From assembly GCA_944387885.1 (NCBI GenBank), contig CALXGR010000002.1, forward strand, positions 1 through 64,000: a stretch of DNA of 64,000 bases, written 5' to 3'. The position numbers and the translations under genes were made by a program. Numbering within the stretch: position 1 is the first letter of the stretch; every line of letters begins with the position of its first letter. The notes under the pieces are model-generated. The model did no database searches, was not told the DNA's origin, and saw nothing but the letters and a program-made list of their open reading frames with translations. Shown here in pieces: positions 34,418-45,095 of this stretch. The DNA comes from an uncultured Clostridia bacterium. Lineage in GTDB: Bacteria > Bacillota > Clostridia > Oscillospirales > Ruminococcaceae.

Positions 34418-34423
34418 TGGGAT

Positions 34424-34455
34424 TTCCCTCACATGGCCGTGTGAGGGGAATCTCT
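34424..34455 (+). terminator. Hairpin after the DUF436 gene
   Basis: GATTTCCCTCACA pairs with TGTGAGGGGAATC (one mismatch) followed by TCTTATTTTT. Confidence 0.7.
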
Positions 34456-34899
34456 TATTTTTAAAGTTAATACTCCGTCCTTACTATTAAGATAAAGAGA
34501 ACAGAAGAAGCCGATTTGTCGAAAAATGATCCTCGATAATTTGATTTTTGAAGTAATGTAAAAGCATAAAATGATCTTATGCAAGGTACATTTGGTTAAA
34601 ATAACTACAAATAGTCCCCCTCAAAAACTGCAAAAATTATTTTTCGCAGATAAAAATATGGAAAAAAATCCGGATTTGTTGTCTTTTTATCTAAAAGAGA
34701 GACTTTTTATTTGGCTATAATCGCAAAAACATAAAAGTTGCAGTTATTGGGCGGGTAAAAATGTACAGTTTGCAGCCTTAACCGGGAGTATACTAAAAAC
34801 AGAATCGATGGACGACGATCCGTTTCCCCATCGGCGCAATGAAAAGAGAGAGATTGCTTTGCACCGGTGGCAGAACAAGATGAAAGGAGGACAACACAA
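34456..34899 (+). promoter_or_regulatory. AT-rich control region of the PTS/Iol-like operon
   Basis: No gene in this stretch. It is much richer in A/T than its surroundings. It contains an inverted repeat GCATAA (34564-34569)/TTATGC (34577-34582); a direct repeat CTTTTTAT at 34683-34690 and 34703-34710 (20-base period); a consensus -10 TATAAT (34716-34721) with no recognisable -35, its place being framed by the direct repeats; and a second possible -10, TATACT, near 34789. A missing -35 with helically phased repeats suits an activator-dependent promoter, and the PRD regulator at 38247 is the obvious candidate (inference). Confidence 0.55.
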
Positions 34900-35208
34900 A
34901 TGAAGATTGTCGGAATTACTGCCTGCACCGCAGGAATCGCCCACACCTATCTGGTTAAGGAGAAACTGCTGGCCGCTGCTAAGGAGCTGGGGTATGAGAT
35001 CAAGATCGAGACCCAGGGCTCTATCGGAGTCGATGATGCTTTGACTCCGGAGGACATCGCAAGCGCCGATGTAGTTCTCATTGCCCATGATATCAATGTG
35101 GACACCGCTCGCTTCAAGGGCAAGCCCCTGGTAGACATTCCTATCAGCCTGGCCATGAAGAGCCCCAAGTCCGTACTTACTTCCATTGCTAAGAAGCTGG
35201 GCAAGTAA
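34900..35208 (+). CDS. PTS fructose-type EIIB component
   Basis: 102 residues, one PTS_IIB_fruc domain on its own. [18 protein letters not shown] carries the phosphorylated Cys9 in the CxxGIAHT motif; [12 protein letters not shown] is also typical. It takes phosphate from EIIA and hands it to the sugar during transport. Start: ATG at 34900 behind AAAGGAGGACAAC. Followed at 43 bases by the EIIC gene. The dispersed EII parts (B, C here; A at 40263) belong to one system. Confidence 0.93.
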
Positions 35209-35251
35209 TCGGGACTTCTAAAAATCCAAACAAGGAGGAGAATCATTCTTT

Positions 35252-36406
35252 ATGAACATCAAGAAGATTAAGGATCCGGTTATGACCGGTATTTCCTACA
35301 TGATCCCTATGGTGGTTGCCGGCGGTATTCTGGGCGCTCTGGCCAAGGGCCTTGGCGACTACGATATCAGCAATGCGGTGCTTTCTGGCGCCACTCCCTT
35401 CAGCAACATGTTTAGCAGCCTGAACCCTGACTGGGTACCTACCAACGGCTTTGTGGCTGTGGAAGGTGCACTGGGTGGTTTCTGGTACGCTTTCTGGTGG
35501 GGCGTTAACATGCTGTCCACCTACGCCATGAACTTCGCTGTTGCCGTTCTGACTGCTGGTGCTGCTTACGCTATCGCCGGCCGTCCCGGCATCGTTCCCG
35601 GCCTGGTTATCGGCTACGCAAGTGCTCAGTCTAAGGCTGGCTTCCTCGGCGGCCTGCTGATGGCTTTCGTTATCGGCTACTTCATCAACTGGATGAAGAC
35701 CTGGAAGGTTCCCAAGTGGTGCGCCGGTCTGATGCCCGTTTTGATTATTCCGGTCATATCCACATTGGTCTGCGGCATGCTCTTCTGCATCGTACTCATG
35801 CGCCCCATGGCAGCCGGTATGACCGCTCTCCAGAACTGGATTATGGCCCTGAACGGCGGTGCCAAGTTCGTCATCGGTGCTGTTATCGGCGGCTGTATGG
35901 GCTTTGACTTGGGTGGTCCCGTCAACAAGACCGCATCCATGGCCGCCAACGCTCTGGGTGCCGACGGTGTCAACGGACCTATGTCTGCTAAGATCATCGG
36001 CGGTATGACTCCTCCTGTGGGCATCTGGATCTCCACCCTCATCGCTCCCAAGAAGTTCAACCAGGCTGATAAGGACACTGCTCTCACCGCTCTGCCTATG
36101 GGCCTCTGCTTCATCACCGAAGGTGTTCTGCCCTTCGCTGCTGCTGACCCCCTGCGTTTCATTCCTTCCTCCGTCGTTGGTTCTGCCATTGCCGGTGGTA
36201 TCGCAGTAGCAGCTGGCGTAGAATCTGTAGCCGGTCACGGTGGTATCTTCGTATTCCCCATGATGGTCAACCCCCTCATGGCAGTTGTAGCTCTCGTTGC
36301 CGGTTCCGTTGTTACCGGTGTTATGTACGCCTTCATCCGCAAGCCTCTGCCTGAGGATGCAGGTGAAGAGGAAATGGTGGATCTGGATCTGAACATTCAG
36401 ATCTGA
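35252..36406 (+). CDS. PTS fructose-type EIIC permease
   Basis: 384 residues, polytopic membrane protein. Starts with IKDPVMTGISYMIPMVVAGGILGALA, and has GAVIGGCMGFDLGGPVNKTA and ITEGVLPFAAADPLRFIPSSVVGSAIAGG, all typical of fructose/mannitol-class EIIC. Codon use in the middle is GCT/GTT-rich, a sign of high expression. Start: ATG behind AAGGAGGAGAATC. The transported substrate cannot be read from sequence; downstream genes point away from plain fructose. Confidence 0.93.
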   Translation: MNIKKIKDPVMTGISYMIPMVVAGGILGALAKGLGDYDISNAVLSGATPFSNMFSSLNPDWVPTNGFVAVEGALGGFWYAFWWGVNMLSTYAMNFAVAVLTAGAAYAIAGRPGIVPGLVIGYASAQSKAGFLGGLLMAFVIGYFINWMKTWKVPKWCAGLMPVLIIPVISTLVCGMLFCIVLMRPMAAGMTALQNWIMALNGGAKFVIGAVIGGCMGFDLGGPVNKTASMAANALGADGVNGPMSAKIIGGMTPPVGIWISTLIAPKKFNQADKDTALTALPMGLCFITEGVLPFAAADPLRFIPSSVVGSAIAGGIAVAAGVESVAGHGGIFVFPMMVNPLMAVVALVAGSVVTGVMYAFIRKPLPEDAGEEEMVDLDLNIQI

Positions 36407-36450
36407 TCCCCCGCAAGTTAAGGTTTTACCAGGTAGACTCCTGAGTAAAA

Positions 36451-36483
36451 AAACAGTGCAGAAGGGGGTTCTTCCTTCTGCGC
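36451..36483 (+). terminator. Intra-operon hairpin between EIIC and aldolase
   Basis: AACAGTGCAGAAGG pairs with CCTTCTGCGCTGTT (one G-U) across an 8-base loop, followed by TCTTGATAGCTC and only later TTTTTT. Perhaps a partial terminator or mRNA-stabilising element lowering enzyme-gene expression relative to EIIB/C. Confidence 0.65.
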
Positions 36484-36565
36484 TGTTTCTTGATAGCTCT
36501 TTTTTCAAAAAAGGTAGGAATTATCCCCCTTACAAAAGCACACAAAAGCACAGAGGTATTTGAAA

Positions 36566-37450
36566 ATGTTAGTATCCATGAAAGCTATTCTGGACCACGC
36601 AAACAAGCACAACTACGCCGTTATGGCCATGAACTCCATCAACATGGAGATGGTCCGTGGCGCTATTCGTGCCGCCGAGGAGATGCATGCTCCCATTATC
36701 ATTCAGATGGGCCCCGGCCAGATGGGAAAACATGCTCATCGGGAGGAAATGGTCCCCCTGGTTACCGAGCTGGCAGAGCGGGCCAGCGTTCCCGTATGCC
36801 TGAACATGGACCACGGTTCCAAGTTTGAGGATATGGTGGACTGCATCCGGGCCGGTTTCACCAACGTTATGTTTGACGGTTCCTCTCTTCCTTATGAAGA
36901 GAATGTGGCCCGCACTGAGATGGTCTGCGCTCTGGCACATCCCCATGGCTGCAGCGTAGAAGCTGAGCTGGGCCATGTTGGCCAGGCAGCTGACGAGGAC
37001 GATGAGAACGCTGATTTCCTCACCGATCCTGCCATGGCAAAGGACTTTGTGGATCGCACCGGTGTAGATGCCCTGGCTGTAGCTATCGGCACCGCTCACG
37101 GCGCATATCCCAAGGGAAAGATTCCCAAACTGGACTTTGAGCGGCTGACTCAGCTCAAGCAGACCCTGAAGATGCCTCTGGTTCTCCATGGCGGCAGCGG
37201 CGCCGGCGAAGCCAACATCCGGAAGGCTGTTGAGTGCGGTATCAACAAGATCAATGTTGCAACCGATGCTTTCCAGGCTGCCAAGGATGCCTTCATGGCC
37301 GCATACAATGAGAATCCCTCCAAGGACTACCTGCAGCTCTGCATGGATACCGAGGAAGGTGTCAAGAAATTCGTAGAGGATTACATGCAGATGATCGGCT
37401 GCTGCAACCGTTATTACTACGGCGCCGCCGTTTCCACCAGCAAGGAGTAA
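36566..37450 (+). CDS. Class II ketose-bisphosphate aldolase (FbaA/GatY/IolJ-like)
   Basis: 294 residues. Zinc ligands in the expected places: His83 (MDHGS), Glu in VEAELGHVG (132-134), His178 (GTAHGAYP) and His208 (VLHGGSGA); phosphate loop GSGAGEANIRKAVE and KINVATD. These enzymes cleave ketose (bis)phosphates to dihydroxyacetone phosphate and an aldehyde. The family includes fructose- and tagatose-bisphosphate aldolases and IolJ, which cleaves 2-deoxy-5-keto-gluconate 6-phosphate; the IolC- and IolB-like genes nearby favour an IolJ-like substrate. Start: ATG at 36566 behind AGAGG; a TTG 6 bases earlier is less likely. Confidence 0.9.
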   Translation: MLVSMKAILDHANKHNYAVMAMNSINMEMVRGAIRAAEEMHAPIIIQMGPGQMGKHAHREEMVPLVTELAERASVPVCLNMDHGSKFEDMVDCIRAGFTNVMFDGSSLPYEENVARTEMVCALAHPHGCSVEAELGHVGQAADEDDENADFLTDPAMAKDFVDRTGVDALAVAIGTAHGAYPKGKIPKLDFERLTQLKQTLKMPLVLHGGSGAGEANIRKAVECGINKINVATDAFQAAKDAFMAAYNENPSKDYLQLCMDTEEGVKKFVEDYMQMIGCCNRYYYGAAVSTSKE

Positions 37451-37479
37451 TCCGACCAATAGTGTTTCAGAAAAAGGAA

Positions 37480-37589
37480 AAGGAGCCCTAAGCCACCGGC
37501 CAAACCCCCGTGGGGAGGCACCGTCCACACCATTGATGGTCCTGCCCACGGGCGGCTGTACGGGTGTGCCCGGGGTGGCGGGGCTCCTT
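37480..37589 (+). other. Long GC-rich stem structure in the PTS operon
   Basis: AAGGAGCCC (37480-37488) pairs with GGGCTCCTT (37581-37589), and GCCACC (37492-37497) with GGTGGC (37574-37579). Inside are smaller hairpins such as ACCATTGATGGT and CCCCCGTGGGG. After the closing arm comes GCCTTTTG, a poor T-run, so it is not a classical terminator. Could be a structured RNA, processing site or a small inserted repeat. Confidence 0.5.
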
Positions 37590-37618
37590 GCCTTTTGTAC
37601 AAAAAAGACAGGTGAGTT

Positions 37619-38242
37619 ATGGATCTATTTACTTGGGGCTTTATCAGCATCGTTCTTATCTTCATGGGCGCAAAAGTGTTTTATGAATTCAGAATGTATA
37701 AGAACAGTGTGTATAAAATGATTTACAGCTCCTTCATTGAATACCGCAGCCGGAGAAAGAGCATTGAAGGAATGTCGGAAAGCTATAACTTCCGTGATGC
37801 TTTCGGGCCTCACAGGATCATCTTTTCGGCCCTGGAGGACCAGAAGATAAGCCCGGCATCTTTTATGACAGTGTTCCTCACTTCAGGCTGTTATGTATTT
37901 GGGATCTGTACCAAAGAACCTGCCGCAAACTCCATCGCACGTACCAAAGAGTTTTTCAGTGAAAATGTCCAGAAGAAACTGGAGGGAACCGTCTATGGTT
38001 CAGAGAAGGTCCCGGTGACCTTCCGCCTCCTTCTCCCGGACAGCCTGCCCGGGAAAATTTCTCGGGACAAGGGAGTTATCCGCCGTCAGGAATTGATGGA
38101 GGAGTTGACCCGGCTCCACAAAGAGGCTCCGGCTGTCTGGTCCGCAGAGGATGTGGACCATCTGTTCCGGACCATTGCAGCCCAGGCACTGAAAACTGAG
38201 GAGGAGAGCAGCCTTTCCTCCATGCTCACGAAAGACATGTAA
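37619..38242 (+). CDS. Single-pass membrane protein of unknown function in the PTS operon
   Basis: 207 residues, no family recognised. One N-terminal membrane helix (about residues 5-22, FTWGFISIVLIFMGAKVFY), then a positively charged segment (YRSRRKS) implying a cytoplasmic body, and a soluble alpha/beta part. Start: ATG behind ACAGGTGAG. It lies 4 bases before the PRD-regulator gene, so the two are translationally linked; a sensing or regulator-anchoring role is possible but nothing in the sequence proves it. Confidence 0.7.
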   Translation: MDLFTWGFISIVLIFMGAKVFYEFRMYKNSVYKMIYSSFIEYRSRRKSIEGMSESYNFRDAFGPHRIIFSALEDQKISPASFMTVFLTSGCYVFGICTKEPAANSIARTKEFFSENVQKKLEGTVYGSEKVPVTFRLLLPDSLPGKISRDKGVIRRQELMEELTRLHKEAPAVWSAEDVDHLFRTIAAQALKTEEESSLSSMLTKDM

Positions 38243-38246
38243 CGCC

Positions 38247-40247
38247 ATGACCAAAAAGACAGAAAAAGAAAGATTTTACCGGGGCCGAATACTGGGATCA
38301 TTGCTCCGGCACGACATGGTGACCGTTTCCATGCTGGCGGAGGAGGCAGGAATTGCAGAAAATTCCGTCCGTGCCAAACTGGGAAATGTGGAAGAGTACC
38401 TTACGGAGAACCAGCTGGGAACCCTGACCAGAAAACCTCATGTGGGAATCTGGCTGGAAGCCACTGAATCTCAGCGGGAAGCACTTCGTCAGGAAGTCAA
38501 GGATGCAACTTCCAACCAGGAGTTTATCTCAGATCAGAACCTTCGCAGGGATGAAGTACTGCGGCTGATCTTCCAGATGCGAAAGTCCCAGCCCCTGACC
38601 CTGAATGCCATTGGTCAGAAGCTATACCTGAGCCCTCCGGCGGCCAAGAAAAGTTTTCAGCTTGCGGCAGCCTGGCTGGAGAAAAACGGGATCCAGGTCC
38701 AGGCGGTGCAGAACCGGGGGATCACCCTGGAGACATCTGAAGGCAATTACCGGAATGTGCTTAAAAACCATCTGCTCCAAAATTATTTTGATGGAACCAT
38801 CAAATCGGTGGAGGAGTTCCTTCCGGCGGTCCTGATGGAAGAAGTCCGGCAATGCCTGGTCAATGCCGAAAATATCTGGCGGCTGGAATTCAGTGATTAT
38901 TCCTTCCGTGATATATGGCTCTATCTGGTCATCGCTGTTTATCGGATGAACACGGGCCACGCCATTGAGCCTCTTACCAAAGAGGAAGAGGTGGAGATTG
39001 CCAAACATAAAGAGTTTGAGTTTTCCTCCAACCTGGTGGATATGCTGGCCAAAAAGAAGGGAATCCGCTTTCCGGCAGAGGAAGTCCTCAATCTGGCAAA
39101 GCTGATCCTCTGCACCGGCATGGCCTGCGGCAGTCCTCAGGATCCTCGTGCAGCCAACGACGTTTTCGAGTATGACAGCAAACTGAAAGCTTTCACCAAG
39201 GACGTTATCGCTACCATGAGCGTGGTTCTGGGAGAGGATCTGACAGAAGATGCACAGCTCTATGAAGGATTGCTCCAGCATCTCCGGCCTGCGGTCTTCC
39301 GACTACGGTACGGCTACGAAAAAGTGGATGAGCTGCTGGATTACACCCGTCAGGAGTATAAGAATGTATTCCGGGCGGCCTGGTCCACCAGCACCTTGTT
39401 TGAAAGCTACTTTAATGTGAATGTCACCGCTGACGAGCTGCTCTATATCACCCTTTATGTGGAGGTGGCTCTGGAGCGTAAAAAGCGGAGCCTGCGGGGA
39501 ATATTGGTGGTCCAGGCCAACGATATCCACGCCCAGCTTACCGCTATGAAGATCCAGAAAGCGTTCCCCAGAATCGTGAAACTGGAGCCGGTCAGTGTAC
39601 AGAATTTCGTGCCCGAACTGCTGAAAGAAAATGATTTCGTCCTCATTACCGAGGACAGCGCAGTACAGCGGGCGATGGCCGGGATAGGCCAGGATGAACG
39701 GCTTATTTCGGTTCCCAAGGTATTCTCGGACGATGCAGAGCTGAAGCTGAAGCAGGATCTGAGGGACCTTACGGCCAACCGGGACCGTCAGGACGAAAAG
39801 TTGGCCATCAGCAGCATCCCGCTGCTGGACCCTGACCTGATGTTTATCCACAGCCCCCTCACCAGCAAGGAGGAGATCCTCCGCACCATAGTGGACAAGC
39901 TGGTGAAAGAGGGATACGTTATGCCCGGGTATTTCGAGTCAGTAATGACCCGAGAAAAAGCTACCACCACAGCCATCGGCAATGGGGTGGCAATTCCCCA
40001 CGGTTTCCCCGGCGGGGTGAACCAATCCAAGGTTTGCATCTGCACTCTCCAGCAGCCCATCAACTGGAACGGCGAGATGGTGGATGTGATTTTCCTGCTG
40101 GCTATCAAAACAAATACCGTCACAGAGACGGACAATGTCCGGCAGTTTTATAGGTATTTTGTGAAGCTCACAGATACCAAGGAAAAGGTGGACGTGATCC
40201 GCAATATTTCCACCAGTTCTGAAATGTACAAATATCTTATTAGCTGA
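38247..40247 (+). CDS. PRD-domain transcriptional regulator with C-terminal EIIA (BglG/MtlR/LicR type)
   Basis: 666 residues. N-terminal winged-helix pair (RGRILGSLLRHDMVTVSMLAEEAGI; second HTH near residues 110-150 with LNAIGQKLYLSPPAAKKSF), two PRDs (first around FRDIWLYLVIAVYRMNTGHAI; second with LLQHLRPAVFRLRYGYE), an EIIB-like segment near GILVVQANDIHAQL, and a fructose/mannitol-type EIIA with His585 in NGVAIPHGFPGG. In this family PTS phosphorylation of PRD, IIB and IIA residues switches activity with substrate supply. It is a DNA-binding activator layout rather than an RNA-binding antiterminator. No clear SD; translation is likely coupled to the preceding gene. Confidence 0.9.
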   Translation: MTKKTEKERFYRGRILGSLLRHDMVTVSMLAEEAGIAENSVRAKLGNVEEYLTENQLGTLTRKPHVGIWLEATESQREALRQEVKDATSNQEFISDQNLRRDEVLRLIFQMRKSQPLTLNAIGQKLYLSPPAAKKSFQLAAAWLEKNGIQVQAVQNRGITLETSEGNYRNVLKNHLLQNYFDGTIKSVEEFLPAVLMEEVRQCLVNAENIWRLEFSDYSFRDIWLYLVIAVYRMNTGHAIEPLTKEEEVEIAKHKEFEFSSNLVDMLAKKKGIRFPAEEVLNLAKLILCTGMACGSPQDPRAANDVFEYDSKLKAFTKDVIATMSVVLGEDLTEDAQLYEGLLQHLRPAVFRLRYGYEKVDELLDYTRQEYKNVFRAAWSTSTLFESYFNVNVTADELLYITLYVEVALERKKRSLRGILVVQANDIHAQLTAMKIQKAFPRIVKLEPVSVQNFVPELLKENDFVLITEDSAVQRAMAGIGQDERLISVPKVFSDDAELKLKQDLRDLTANRDRQDEKLAISSIPLLDPDLMFIHSPLTSKEEILRTIVDKLVKEGYVMPGYFESVMTREKATTTAIGNGVAIPHGFPGGVNQSKVCICTLQQPINWNGEMVDVIFLLAIKTNTVTETDNVRQFYRYFVKLTDTKEKVDVIRNISTSSEMYKYLIS

Positions 40248-40262
40248 GAGGAGAGAAATGCT

Positions 40263-40796
40263 ATGAGCGAAGAACTGAATATTCTGGAGATTTTTGACGA
40301 AAAAGTAGTGGACTGTGACATGGATGTTACCACCAAGGATCAGGCTTTCCGGCACCTGAGCAAGCTGCTTCTGGAGGCAGGATACATTGACGATCTGGAA
40401 CAGTTTGTTGCAGACATCTACGAGCGTGAAGCCGTCGAGGAGACCGGCATCGGAGAGGGAATTGCCATTCCCCACGGAAAGTCCGATGCAGTCAAGAAAC
40501 TGGGCATCGCTGTTGGCAAGTGCCGCGGCACCATTGATGACTGGGGCAGCCTGGACGACGAACCCATCAAAACCGTATTTCTGTTCTGCGTATCCAAGAG
40601 CCAGTATGGGGAGGTACAGCTTCGGATGCTGAATAAGCTGGCAGGCAGCCTTGCCAAAGGAAACACCATGGATCTGGTAAAGGAAATGACCTGCTATCAG
40701 GACCTCATTGATGCCTTCAGCAACCAGGACAATGCAGCGAAGAAAGTTACTGACATTGAAGAGCTGAAGGACGATATTGAGATCAACATCCTGTAA
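40263..40796 (+). CDS. PTS fructose-type EIIA component
   Basis: 177 residues. Single PTS_EIIA_2 domain with active His71 in GIGEGIAIPHGKS, plus a short acidic C-terminal extension. It accepts phosphate from HPr and passes it to EIIB at 34900. Start: ATG behind GAGAGGAGAGAAATGCT; 15 bases after the regulator, whose own C-terminal EIIA is related in sequence, suggesting a shared origin or shared phosphate route. Confidence 0.92.
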   Translation: MSEELNILEIFDEKVVDCDMDVTTKDQAFRHLSKLLLEAGYIDDLEQFVADIYEREAVEETGIGEGIAIPHGKSDAVKKLGIAVGKCRGTIDDWGSLDDEPIKTVFLFCVSKSQYGEVQLRMLNKLAGSLAKGNTMDLVKEMTCYQDLIDAFSNQDNAAKKVTDIEELKDDIEINIL

Positions 40797-40834
40797 ATCA
40801 ACGGGAAAAATCAGAATTAAAGGAGTCAACTGTC

Positions 40835-41107
40835 ATGGTCAAGAAAGATGTAAAAGTCATTAACCCCACCGGTATTCACCTGCGTCCTGCCGGAAATCTG
40901 GTCAAGATGGCAAAAAAATGCACCTCTGAAACCCTCATCACCAAGGACGGCAAGAGCGAGGACCCCAAGCGTCTGCTCAAGCTGCTGACCCTGGAGATCG
41001 GCTGCGGCAACGTTATCACTGTCAGCTGCGACGGCCCCAACGAAGAAGAGGACCTGAAGATGCTGGTAGACTACATTGAGAGTGGTCTGGGAGAGTTGGA
41101 CGGCTGA
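40835..41107 (+). CDS. HPr-like phosphocarrier protein without the regulatory serine
   Basis: 90 residues. Active-site His15 in NPTGIHLRPAG is intact. The region that in Firmicute HPr carries Ser46 (KSIMGVMSL) reads KRLLKLLTLE here: the position is Arg46. It should thus carry phosphate but escape HPr kinase and the CcpA-linked catabolite response. Being encoded between EIIA and the catabolic genes, it looks like a dedicated phosphocarrier for this PTS. Start: ATG behind AAAGGAGTCAACTGTC. Confidence 0.92.
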   Translation: MVKKDVKVINPTGIHLRPAGNLVKMAKKCTSETLITKDGKSEDPKRLLKLLTLEIGCGNVITVSCDGPNEEEDLKMLVDYIESGLGELDG

Positions 41108-41154
41108 TTCCCCGAACTGGGAAAAGTCCTGCCGGCTGAAAGGAAGGAACGGTA

Positions 41155-42189
41155 ATGAAGTATTTGGAATTGGACCAGACCAGACCTCTGGATCTGGTGC
41201 TGTTGGGACGGGTTGCAATTGATTTTAACCCCGCCTACAATGACCAGGTGAAGGAAGAGTTCAAACCTCTGAAAAAAGTACATATGTTTGAAAAGTTTGT
41301 GGGGGGAAGCCCTGCAAACATCGCCGTAGGAGTGACCCACCACGGAATGAAAGCTGGATTCATCGGTAAGGTATCGGATGACCAGTTCGGTGAGTTTGTG
41401 GTGGACTACTTCAATGAGCAGGGGATCGACACTACCTGCATCACCAAATGTACCGGCGGGGAGAAGCTGGGACTGACCTTCACCGAGATGCTCTCTCCCA
41501 GTGAAAGCAGCATCCTCATGTACCGGAACTGCATTGCCGATCTGCAGCTGTCGGTGGAAGACATCCATCCGGAGTATATTGCAAAGGCCAAAGCCCTGCT
41601 TATCTCCGGCACTGCTCTGGCAGAGAGTCCTTCCCGGGAAGCCGCCATCAAGGCGGTAATGGTAGCCCGGCAGGTAAACACTCCCATTATCTTTGACATC
41701 GACTACCGGGCCTACAACTGGAAAAACAGCGATGAGATCTCCATCTACTACTCGGTAGTGGCCAAGGAAGCGGATATTATCATGGGCTCTCGGGAGGAGT
41801 TTGACCTGACCGAGAAGCTGATCCGCCCCGGCATGACGGATGAAGAATCCGCCGCCTACTGGCACGGCCGCCGGGCCAAGCTGGTAGTCATCAAACACGG
41901 AATGCAGGGCTCCACCGCCTACACCTGCGATGGACGGAGCTTCTCCATCAAGCCTTTCCCCGTCAAGGCACGGAAGGGCTTCGGGGGCGGCGACGGCTAC
42001 GGTTCCGGATTCCTGTATGGCCTTTACCAGGGATGGGATATCCAGGACTGCCTGGAGTTCGGCTCTGCCGAGGCATCCATGATGGTCCGCAGTAACAACT
42101 GCAGTGACTCCCTCCCCAATGCCCAGCAGGTAAGGGATTTTATTCAGGAGGAAAAAGCCCTGTATGGGGAAATGGTGGCCCGGGTGTGA
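41155..42189 (+). CDS. iolC: PfkB-family sugar kinase, 5-dehydro-2-deoxygluconokinase (IolC)-like
   Basis: 344 residues, ribokinase fold. N-terminal LVLLGRVAIDFNP and KFVGGSPANIAVGVTHHGMKAGFIGKVSDDQFG; C-terminal anion hole/catalytic segment is GGGDGYGSGFLYGL, retaining the catalytic Asp of the usual GAGD. The N-terminus and the KARKGFGGGDGYGSG stretch are like IolC, which phosphorylates 2-deoxy-5-keto-gluconate. Other PfkB kinases cannot be excluded. Start: ATG behind GAAAGGAAGGAACGG. Confidence 0.85.
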   Translation: MKYLELDQTRPLDLVLLGRVAIDFNPAYNDQVKEEFKPLKKVHMFEKFVGGSPANIAVGVTHHGMKAGFIGKVSDDQFGEFVVDYFNEQGIDTTCITKCTGGEKLGLTFTEMLSPSESSILMYRNCIADLQLSVEDIHPEYIAKAKALLISGTALAESPSREAAIKAVMVARQVNTPIIFDIDYRAYNWKNSDEISIYYSVVAKEADIIMGSREEFDLTEKLIRPGMTDEESAAYWHGRRAKLVVIKHGMQGSTAYTCDGRSFSIKPFPVKARKGFGGGDGYGSGFLYGLYQGWDIQDCLEFGSAEASMMVRSNNCSDSLPNAQQVRDFIQEEKALYGEMVARV

Positions 42190-42222
42190 CCCGGTTCAGT
42201 GGAGCAAGGAGGCAAAACCAGT

Positions 42223-43008
42223 ATGAGCAAAGTTTTTGGATATCCCCAGTTTGACGAGAATGGGGAAAAGATTCTTACTACCTATACCAACGAATACAGC
42301 GCCATGATGATGGACATCCGGGTCTACCGTCTGGCTTGTGGCCAGACCCGCCAGTTCTCCCGTGAAGGGGAGGAGACTGCTATCCTCCTGCTGAAGGGCG
42401 AGGTGACCTTCGGCTGGGAGGGCCAGACCGCCGGCGCCAGCCGGAAGGATGTCTTTACGGAAGGCCCCTGGGCCCTCCATGTTTGCAGCGGCACCCAGGT
42501 CACCGTCACCGCCCAGGCTCCCAGCGAGATTCTGGTCCAGTGCACCAAGAACGAAAAAGAATTCCCTGCCAAGCTGTACAAGCCCGAGGATGCTCCCTGG
42601 GGCTATTCCAGCAAGGGTAAGTTCGGAAATGTGGCCAACCGCCGTGTAAATACCATCTTTGACCATGACATCGCTCCCTGGTCCAACATGGTTCTGGGAG
42701 AGGTGCTCAATGACCGGGGAAACTGGTCCGGCTACCTGCCTCACCGTCATCCTCAGCCTGAGACCTACTACTTCCTGTTTGACCGTCCGGAAGGTTTCGG
42801 CGCCAGTTTTGTAGGAGATCAGGTTTTCAAGAGCACTGACGGCAGCTTCTCTGCCATCCCCGGCGGAGAACTTCACCCCCAGGCGGTGGCTCCCGGATTC
42901 CAGATGTATACCTGCTGGATGATCCGCCACCTGGATGGCAACCCCTGGCTCCAGACCGACCGCTGCGAAGATGAGCGGTATGTCTGGCTCCATGATGCAC
43001 AGTTCTGA
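42223..43008 (+). CDS. iolB: 5-deoxy-glucuronate isomerase (IolB)-like
   Basis: 261 residues, bicupin of the KduI/IolB family. SGYLPHRHPQPETYYFLFDRPEGFG gives the metal-binding His/Glu set and GGELHPQAVAPGFQMYTCWMIRHLDGNPW is a family hallmark. IolB turns 5-deoxy-glucuronate into 2-deoxy-5-keto-gluconate, the substrate of IolC. Start: ATG at 42223 behind AAGGAGGCAAAACC; an in-frame ATG at 42199 has no SD. Located between the IolC-like kinase and an alcohol dehydrogenase. Confidence 0.88.
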   Translation: MSKVFGYPQFDENGEKILTTYTNEYSAMMMDIRVYRLACGQTRQFSREGEETAILLLKGEVTFGWEGQTAGASRKDVFTEGPWALHVCSGTQVTVTAQAPSEILVQCTKNEKEFPAKLYKPEDAPWGYSSKGKFGNVANRRVNTIFDHDIAPWSNMVLGEVLNDRGNWSGYLPHRHPQPETYYFLFDRPEGFGASFVGDQVFKSTDGSFSAIPGGELHPQAVAPGFQMYTCWMIRHLDGNPWLQTDRCEDERYVWLHDAQF

Positions 43009-43028
43009 TAGAAAAGAGGAAGAGAAAA

Positions 43029-44183
43029 ATGGCAAGAGAATTTATTGTGCCGGGACGGATCGTAACCGGTGAAGGGGCTTTGCAGACCGCTCAGGCCGCC
43101 ATGGGCAGCCTGGGGAAAAAGGCCCTTCTGGTCACCGACCAGGTTATGATCTCTCTGGGCAACTGTGCAAAGGTGGAGCAGGCTCTGCGGGAGCAGGGGG
43201 TAGAGTATGCCATCTATGCTGAGATCAACGGGGAACCCAACGATCTCATGATCCAGAAAGGACTGGAGCTCTACCGCCAGGAGGGCTGTGATTTCCTGGT
43301 GGCACTGGGCGGCGGCAGCCCCATCGACAGCATGAAGGCTATCGGTGCCCTGGTGAAAAAGGGCGGCAAGATCTCCCAGTTTATGGGAAAGGTCATTGAG
43401 GAGGAGATGCCTCCCATGGTAGCCATCCCCACCACCGCCGGCACCGGTTCCGAGGCAACTCAGTTTACCATCATCACCGATACCGAAAAGGATATCAAGA
43501 TGCTTCTCAAGGGAAGCTGCCTCATGCCTGACCTGGCAGTGATCGATCCTCAGTTCACCATGACTGCACCTCCCAAAATTACCGCAGCCACCGGACTGGA
43601 TGCCCTCTGCCATGCAGTGGAAGCATACACCTCCCGGAAGAGCCAGACCCTCTCCGATACCTTTGCCCTTTCTGCGGTAAAGCGGATTTTCAAGTATCTG
43701 CCCCAGGCTTACCAGAACGGTTCCAACCAGGAAGCCCGGGTCCAGATGTCGGTGGCGGCTCTGGAGGCAGGTATCGCCTTTAACAACGCTTCTGTCACCA
43801 TCATTCATGGAATGAGCCGCCCCATCGGAGCCCTTTTCCATGTGGCTCACGGCATCTCCAATGCCATGCTCATGAATGAGTGCCTGGCCTTCGCCCTGCC
43901 CGGAGCCTATGGCCGGTTTGCAGACCTGGGCCGTGCCATCGGGGCAGCACCCCCCGAGATGGATGATGAGACTGCCGCATCCGCCTTCCTGGCTGCTGTT
44001 GGTCAGATCACCCGGCAGCTGGACACTCCCACCCTGGAAGAGTACGGCATCAAGAAGGAGGACTACTTCGCAGCCATTGAGAAGATGTCCCACGATGCTA
44101 TGGAGAGCGGAAGCCCCCAGAACACCATCCGGCCTGTGTCTCAGGACGAGGTAAAGGAGATTTACAGAAAGCTCTGGAAGTGA
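43029..44183 (+). CDS. Iron-containing alcohol dehydrogenase
   Basis: 384 residues, class III ADH. NAD-binding GGGSPIDSMKAIGAL, TTAGTGSEAT, and metal ligands in LDALCHAVEAY, HGMSRPIGALFHVAHGISNA. Such enzymes reduce aldehydes or oxidise alcohols with Fe2+. In this operon a fitting task is reduction of the aldehyde released by the aldolase (malonate semialdehyde to 3-hydroxypropionate if the IolB-IolC-IolJ reading is right), which would reoxidise NADH in an anaerobe; this is inference. Start: ATG behind AAAGAGGAAGAGAAA. Confidence 0.92.
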   Translation: MAREFIVPGRIVTGEGALQTAQAAMGSLGKKALLVTDQVMISLGNCAKVEQALREQGVEYAIYAEINGEPNDLMIQKGLELYRQEGCDFLVALGGGSPIDSMKAIGALVKKGGKISQFMGKVIEEEMPPMVAIPTTAGTGSEATQFTIITDTEKDIKMLLKGSCLMPDLAVIDPQFTMTAPPKITAATGLDALCHAVEAYTSRKSQTLSDTFALSAVKRIFKYLPQAYQNGSNQEARVQMSVAALEAGIAFNNASVTIIHGMSRPIGALFHVAHGISNAMLMNECLAFALPGAYGRFADLGRAIGAAPPEMDDETAASAFLAAVGQITRQLDTPTLEEYGIKKEDYFAAIEKMSHDAMESGSPQNTIRPVSQDEVKEIYRKLWK

Positions 44184-44208
44184 CAGGGCAGGGAAGGAGA
44201 CCTACTGA

Positions 44209-44898
44209 ATGATTCGGGCAGTAATTTTTGATTTGGACGGGACCCTGTATGACCGCTATTCCTCTCTCCGGGCAGCGGCCTACCAGCTCCACAGCGAGCA
44301 CCGGAACTGGTTCCCTGAATCCATGACCGCCAAGGAACTGGGCCGCCAGCTGGTAAAGTTTGACCATCGGTACAACTATTTTGGCGGATGGCCGTCGGTT
44401 GCTGAGAAACTGAAGACGGCAAATGTTCTCCTGCCGGAGGTAGATGACCGGCAGTTTGGGGAGGCTGCGATCTCGGCTATGGCAGAGAGCCTGGTGCCTT
44501 ATCCCTTTACCCTCAAGATGTTGGCAGACCTTCGCCGGAAAGGGTATCGTCTGGGAATGATCACCAACGGGACCCCTGAGATCCAGTGGCGGAAGCTGCG
44601 GAAGCTGGGTCTGGAAAACCAGTTTGAGACGGTGCTGGTCAGCGGTGCTGTGGGGGCAGAAAAGCCTGACCCTGCTATTTTCCAGGCCTGTGAAAAGGCC
44701 ATGGACCTGCCCGCCCGGGAAATGGTCTATGTAGGGGATAACCCTGAACTGGATATACTGGGCGCCTACAACGGAGGATTCACCCCCATCTGGGTAAAGA
44801 CCTCTGTGGGCTGGGGCTTCCCGGACATTCGCCGGGCTCCTTATGAAATCAATGACGTTTCCGAGCTGGATGATCTGTTGGACAGAATTTCCGGCTGA
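44209..44898 (+). CDS. HAD-superfamily phosphatase
   Basis: 229 residues. HAD motif I FDLDGTLYD, motif II ITNGTPE, motif III Lys in GAEKPDPAIFQ, motif IV VGDNPELDILGA; alpha-helical cap between I and II (type I). Acts on a small phosphate ester or, less likely, another substrate. Last gene of the PTS operon; it could remove phosphate from a PTS-phosphorylated intermediate. Start: ATG behind GAAGGAGACC. Confidence 0.88.
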   Translation: MIRAVIFDLDGTLYDRYSSLRAAAYQLHSEHRNWFPESMTAKELGRQLVKFDHRYNYFGGWPSVAEKLKTANVLLPEVDDRQFGEAAISAMAESLVPYPFTLKMLADLRRKGYRLGMITNGTPEIQWRKLRKLGLENQFETVLVSGAVGAEKPDPAIFQACEKAMDLPAREMVYVGDNPELDILGAYNGGFTPIWVKTSVGWGFPDIRRAPYEINDVSELDDLLDRISG

Positions 44899-44915
44899 CA
44901 AGATTCCCTCTTAAC

Positions 44916-44961
44916 AAGAAAACCTCCGGACAGATTTTTGTCCGGAGGTTTTCTTGTTCCT
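44916..44961 (+). terminator. Terminator of the PTS/Iol-like operon
   Basis: ACAAGAAAACCTCCGGACA pairs with TGTCCGGAGGTTTTCTTGT; 19-base-pair near-perfect stem with built-in T-run. Confidence 0.95.
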
Positions 44962-45095
44962 TTCCTCTTTCCCGTGTTGCGGGAGAGAGGAATTTTTGTT
45001 TTCGGGAAAAATGAAAAGCCTCTCGGCCTGTTTTGGCAATTCTTGCACCCGGCAGAAGGTATTCTGAAGAAAAACAATGCCGGAGGAAATCAATC

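Follow-up and report, generated by a model that had tools for sequence, protein, structure and literature searches.

A Phosphotransferase System Operon with Lower Inositol Pathway Genes in a Gut Clostridia Bacterium Suggests Feeding on an Acid Sugar that Enters Inositol Breakdown Half-Way

The Operon and Its Features

This study addresses an operon that joins a fructose-type phosphotransferase system (PTS) with IolC and IolB, two enzymes known from the lower branch of inositol breakdown. The operon lies in the window, a stretch of 64,000 nucleotides at the start of contig CALXGR010000002.1 (assembly GCA_944387885.1; our contig C2). The host is a gut bacterium of the Gemmiger group, represented by a metagenome-assembled genome (MAG) of 2.04 Mb, which is 85% complete. 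The operon is a + strand run of 11 genes at 34900-44898, in the order EIIB, EIIC, class II aldolase, X37, PRD/EIIA regulator, EIIA, HPr, IolC, IolB, iron-dependent alcohol dehydrogenase (ADH) and HAD phosphatase. A first-pass annotation of the same DNA had joined ten of these genes in one same-strand run, and profile searches find all ten in place, while the eleventh, X37, had been overlooked. The features are as follows:

34419..34454, + strand: terminator-like hairpin 5' of the operon (16 pairs, T tail)
34455..34899, + strand: AT-rich leader
34628-34649: dyad CTGCAAAAATTATTTTTCGCAG in the leader, candidate operator, kept in the sister species (alignment with L010)
34900..35208, + strand: PTS fructose-type EIIB (TIGR00829, 102 bits, over cut-off; Cys of ACTAGIAHT present)
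35252..36406, + strand: PTS fructose-type EIIC (TIGR01427, 253 bits, over cut-off)
36560..37450, + strand: class II aldolase of a PTS-linked clade (PF01116, 317 bits; tree; alignment, with NVATDAF where fructose-bisphosphate (FBP) aldolases have NxDTDxR)
37619..38242, + strand: X37, membrane-anchored protein (homologs beside related aldolases)
38247..40247, + strand: activator-type transcriptional regulator (PF05043, Mga HTH; PF00874, PRDs; PF00359, EIIA domain)
40263..40796, + strand: PTS fructose-type EIIA (TIGR00848, 111 bits, over cut-off; AIPHGK phosphorylation site present)
40835..41107, + strand: private HPr (TIGR01003, 68 bits, over cut-off; GIHLRPA His site present)
41155..42189, + strand: IolC, 5-dehydro-2-deoxygluconokinase, PfkB family (TIGR04382, 365 bits, cut-off 300; best PDB match 2qcv)
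42220..43008, + strand: IolB, 5-deoxyglucuronate isomerase, KduI/IolB family (PF04962, 167 bits)
43029..44183, + strand: ADH, proposed malonate semialdehyde reductase (ortholog of the gut inositol-operon ADH)
44209..44898, + strand: HAD-family phosphatase (PF00702, 99 bits)
44913-44958 and 44962-44992, + strand: two terminator-like hairpins 3' of the operon

The 11-gene run is a functional unit and not a chance neighbourhood, because it is flanked by hairpins, recurs with all 11 genes in a sister species of the same genus (L010/G110; loci and genomes are cited by L and G numbers), and shows ratios of nonsynonymous to synonymous substitution (dN/dS) of 0-0.10 across all genes between the two. 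The PTS is of the fructose class, with EIIA, EIIB and EIIC over their cut-offs and the His and Cys motifs of the phosphorylation sites present. The usual Ser46 of the private HPr (40835-41107) is not recognisable when the sequence is inspected by eye, and the protein therefore probably stands outside HPr-kinase/CcpA signalling; private HPr genes also occur in the PTS-aldolase operons of L158 and L160. X37 has no Pfam or NCBIfam match. Its homologs in L157, L159, L160, L163 and L164 are encoded next to related aldolases, and in four of these distant relatives (L159, L160, L163 and L164) a NERD domain scores above the Pfam cut-off. A search against Rfam returned a tRNA as the sole RNA match and nothing in the operon leader.

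IolC, IolB and ADH Compared with Inositol Operons

An IolB search of genome contigs yielded 80 kept loci, mostly of Lachnospiraceae and at 77-84% identity. Most of these loci have the order IolC-iolD-IolB, often with ADH next, and iolG, iolE and an IolJ-type aldolase are usually close by. In Anaerostipes, iolCDB form an operon and are induced together on myo-inositol (PMC8355322). Against the complete inositol operons of gut Lachnospiraceae, identity is mostly 80-86% for IolC, 77-84% for IolB and 67-78% for the ADH, and the window order IolC-IolB-ADH is the inositol-operon order minus iolD. At columns that are otherwise invariant among the inositol-operon orthologs, the window proteins deviate at 0 of 108 (IolB), 1 of 139 (IolC) and 3 of 138 (ADH); with more divergent inositol operons added, the counts are 0/64, 1/120 and 4/142, respectively. 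The mean identity of the window IolB to the ortholog set equals the median within that set. As for the family model, the window IolB, taken alone, falls below the TIGR04378 cut-off (92 of 205 bits).

Because the gene order is kept minus iolD and conserved positions have hardly changed, IolB and IolC have probably retained their chemistry on 5-deoxyglucuronate (5DG) and 2-deoxy-5-keto-gluconate (DKG). Such column conservation is good, not final, evidence that the substrates of IolC, IolB and the ADH are unchanged. At position 71 of the ADH, 49 inositol-operon enzymes have T, and three PTS-linked ADHs have N, D and N. The inositol-operon ADH presumably reduces malonate semialdehyde. In Mitsuokella, 3-hydroxypropionate is made from inositol and a 3-oxopropionate reductase has been proposed (PMC7618129). 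Compared with the myo-inositol (iol) operons of gut Firmicutes, the window operon thus shares orthologous IolC, IolB and ADH and their order, but differs in its PTS uptake, its aldolase of another clade and the lack of IolD, IolE and IolG in the operon.

An inositol operon in decay, captured beside a fructose PTS operon and left without present function, would likewise show the order iolC-iolD-iolB-adh minus iolD. However, all genes are intact, the conserved residues are kept, and dN/dS against the sister species is 0.019 for IolC, 0.036 for IolB and 0.023 for the ADH; these ratios led us to reject a pseudogene, and a remnant is highly improbable. A KduI role for the window isomerase was also rejected, as the real KduI of the genome sits elsewhere, in a uronate cluster. 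By reading of open reading frames, that hexuronate cluster (L006 1109-11836; G000 C10) holds uxaC, uxaB, uxaA, kduD, kduI, a kdgK-like kinase gene and a gene of the 2-keto-3-deoxy-6-phosphogluconate (KDPG) aldolase type.

The Upper Inositol Pathway and Recurrence in Other Genomes

The first-pass annotation had noted that iolG, iolE and iolD are lacking in the run, and none was found there. It had also pointed to the rest of the genome. A profile search gave no IolD match over the cut-off in the window genome (best about 228 of 715 bits) and no IolE match in this 85% complete MAG; for IolG, the operon has none, and no genome-wide search was made for this large family. The IolD model also gives matches, below or above the cut-off, in all 14 control genomes, and for that reason the sub-cut-off matches are read as other enzymes of the same superfamily. 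The sister genome G110 (81% complete) has no IolD over the cut-off and an IolE match of 19 bits only.

Recurrence was assessed in another Clostridia family, represented by 397 genomes, of which 12 have the window-type aldolase at E <= 1e-95. The gene order that the first-pass annotation had proposed to look for is complete in the sister species, and parts of it, lower-inositol genes included, recur in two genomes of this family. G932 (96% complete) has EIIB-EIIC-aldolase-PRD-EIIA-ADH (58%)-IolC (62%)-aldo/keto reductase-RpiB-like, with 3 of 120 conserved columns changed in IolC. G1009 (98% complete) has EIIA-EIIB-EIIC-aldolase-RpiB-like-GldA-like-racemase-like-transketolase (2 subunits)-IolB (76%), and on the opposite strand an ADH (55%) and an X37 relative; a 291-base gap follows the GldA-like gene, and two operons are possible. 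Neither genome has IolD or IolE over the cut-off. In a Pseudoflavonifractor (L087), IolC-IolB-ADH, with no iolD between, stand behind an ABC transporter of SBP_bac_3 type, on a contig that ends after the ADH; this genome also has no IolD or IolE over the cut-off. The lower branch, or part of it, is found without the upper branch in four lineages, and the importers differ; the sample is small and gives a pattern and no statistic. A literature search returned nothing on a PTS joined to iolB/iolC.

The pathway could be split, with iolG, iolE and iolD in the unassembled 15% and the operon serving as the lower half of ordinary inositol catabolism. The completeness of the window MAG (85%) and of its sister (81%) leaves room for this, but IolD and IolE over the cut-off are missing in both sister MAGs as well as in G932 and G1009, and in inositol operons whose IolB is this similar, iolD normally stands between iolC and iolB. 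We consider a split pathway quite unlikely.

Several further loci touch on these genes. In L161 (6578-12843), an apparent mannose-type PTS is found with an RpiB-like protein, a related aldolase (56%), a two-subunit transketolase and an iron-dependent ADH, so that the aldolase/RpiB/transketolase set is also joined to a second class of PTS. The IolB genes of L089 (9992-10780) and L082 (9887-10675), in genomes without iolD, group with the G1009 IolB (support 0.92), and their products are possible uronate isomerases; the L082 gene is close to a run of PTS, UidA-, UxuA- and UxuB-like genes, with an opposite-strand gene between. An IolB gene (44%), isolated in the listed annotation, lies at 12013-12762 of L007 on plasmid pNY3A, recorded as Klebsiella grimontii; the plasmid also carries an S-layer homology protein, unusual for Klebsiella, and the assignment of the record looks odd. 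Plasmid IolB matches from Ilyobacter and Mesomycoplasma were set aside, as they lie within ordinary inositol operons.

The Class II Aldolase and the PTS Module

The aldolase had been labelled IolJ/Fba-type in the first-pass annotation, and membership in IolJ is not borne out by the tree. The enzyme is roughly 38-47% identical to the IolJ of inositol operons; it groups outside the IolJ clade and forms a distinct one with aldolases whose genes adjoin a fructose-type PTS (L117, L118, L123). By sequence reading, the genome has two other aldolases, one KbaY-like (beside a glucosamine-6-phosphate deaminase-like gene) and one FbaA-like, both also outside IolJ. With no IolJ ortholog among the aldolases of the genome, the PTS-clade enzyme is the sole candidate found for DKG-phosphate.

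In the FBP aldolase of Giardia, the Arg of NxDTDxR binds the distal phosphate. At this position the window enzyme has F (NVATDAF), as have L123, L117 and the gut IolJ (NIATASF), and L118 has W. The missing Arg fits a ketose-1-phosphate substrate without a second phosphate. It is a soft marker and not decisive, because the FBP aldolase 4to8, which we take to be that of S. aureus, also lacks it. The close relatives in L117, L118 and L123 are paired with a PTS and have no kinase in the run, and a relative (59%) in L155/L156 adjoins an ABC importer and a PfkB kinase instead. Both pairings would be expected for a ketose-1-phosphate substrate that may come from either source.

The PTS and aldolase are of separate origin from IolC, IolB and the ADH. 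The fructose-type PTS operons that include a class II aldolase and a PRD regulator (G638/G1098, L117, L118) share EIIB, EIIC, aldolase, PRD and EIIA with the window operon, in the order of G638, and the window operon is extended by IolC, IolB, ADH and HAD. In G638 and G1098 this bare module, EIIB-EIIC-aldolase-PRD-EIIA (66-70% identity), stands without iol genes in its operon. Other related PTS-aldolase operons (L158 757-11248, L159 2909-13795, L160 3822-14909, L163 5264-16470, L164 2008-12976) run on into an acyl-CoA ligase, a FadX-like CoA-transferase, a 3-hydroxybutyryl-CoA dehydrogenase and a BktB-like thiolase. A shared CoA-transferase branch was rejected, as none of the inositol loci retrieved contains counterparts of the CoA-ligase and transferase genes of these five loci.

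One operon may do two jobs, as the module without iol genes in G638/G1098, its more distant forms in L117, L118 and L158-L165, and the distance of the aldolase from IolJ would allow. The PTS and aldolase would degrade an ordinary or rare ketose, whose 1-phosphate would yield dihydroxyacetone phosphate (DHAP) and glyceraldehyde or a deoxy-aldehyde, and an acquired IolC-IolB-ADH cassette would salvage 5DG and DKG separately, with only the aldolase, ADH and regulator shared. Against this, lower-inositol genes are independently linked to the module in G932 and G1009, and no other aldolase candidate for DKG-phosphate was found; we regard such a division as conceivable but rather doubtful.

A Proposed Pathway

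The gene content suggests that the operon feeds on an acid sugar entering inositol breakdown half-way. We tentatively propose, as a reading with a reasonable chance though still short of an even one, an inducible operon that breaks down an acid sugar of 5DG/DKG type independently of inositol and in which the PTS and IolB/IolC feed one aldolase. In ketose numbering, DKG can be written as 5-deoxy-fructuronate, and DKG-6-phosphate would be a ketose-1-phosphate. Fructose-class EII phosphorylates fructose at C1, as is established for FruA. DKG-6-phosphate would thus be of the product type of a fructose PTS, which would let both branches converge on one aldolase. In the first branch, EIIA, EIIB, EIIC and the private HPr would import a ketose as its 1-phosphate. 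In the second, IolB would isomerise the unphosphorylated aldose 5DG, and IolC would then add the phosphate. Cleavage of the common 1-phosphate by the aldolase would give DHAP plus malonate semialdehyde; reduction of the latter to 3-hydroxypropionate by the ADH would balance the NADH from DHAP. The PRD/EIIA protein would sense PTS phosphorylation and activate the operon. On this analysis the PTS product could bypass IolB and IolC altogether, since the PTS-made ketose-1-phosphate and the IolC product would be the same kind of molecule. The more specific proposal, that the fructose-class PTS imports the keto-acid DKG as 1-phosphate, with IolB/IolC as second entry to an inositol-independent deoxyuronate pathway ending in 3-hydroxypropionate, is one we hold with considerable doubt.

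The first-pass annotation had offered two routes. Entry of a PTS-linked substrate at the level of 5DG/DKG fits the evidence best, because conserved positions are unchanged in IolB (0/108) and nearly so in IolC (1/139), and IolD and IolE are absent by search here, in G932 and in G1009; the substrate itself is a prediction. It is favoured over the other route, in which IolB would isomerise a PTS-made sugar phosphate ahead of a second phosphorylation and cleavage. That route is disfavoured because it would need new specificities of IolB and IolC, of which none is visible, and the aldolase is without the second-phosphate Arg of FBP aldolases.

Other known systems follow a similar logic. The E. coli ydj cluster (YdjH kinase, YdjI class II aldolase, YdjG reductase) may work alike: its kinase would make a ketose(uronate)-1-phosphate, to be split into DHAP and an aldehyde by a class II aldolase that has C (6ofu) in place of the distal Arg; what we presume of the YdjI substrate serves as a lead only. 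G932 also has a YdjG-like reductase. The ydj cluster differs from the window operon in having a different kinase, no PTS and no IolB. Sulfo-EMP2 proceeds by the isomerase SqvD, the kinase SqiK, the class II aldolase SqiA and a reductase (PMC12890257). Its likeness to the window operon is one of reaction logic. On that logic the set could have been re-purposed for another acid aldose, such as a hexuronate (giving DHAP and tartronate semialdehyde) or sulfoquinovose (giving DHAP and sulfolactaldehyde). However, inositol-operon residues are kept in IolB and IolC, the run has no sulfoquinovosidase, and the genome has its own uronate cluster (kduI-kduD-kdgK-KDPG aldolase-uxaC/B/A), which makes re-purposing unlikely. 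A sulfoquinovose pathway as such was rejected, since the run holds no supporting gene.

Several points weigh against the inositol-independent pathway proposed here. The window genome is only 85% complete, its aldolase is not IolJ, and the missing Arg is shared by the FBP aldolase 4to8. Direct formation of the phosphate by the PTS would make IolC and IolB superfluous in that branch. The genomes with the bare PTS module, G638 and G1098, hold IolD and IolE, in G638 as part of a complete inositol operon that has an IolJ of its own, and the PTS may accordingly serve another ketose. We also know of no natural source of free DKG or 5DG.

Implications

3-Hydroxypropionate has been reported in gut cross-feeding (PMC7618129). 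If the proposed pathway holds, gut clostridia would gain an inositol-free route to this compound, and the lower inositol branch would stand as a separate pathway fed by a dietary or microbial substrate of its own. A PTS that imports DKG would imply a source of such deoxyuronates in the gut. For these genes, the family-based labels "inositol catabolism" and "fructose PTS" could both mislead.

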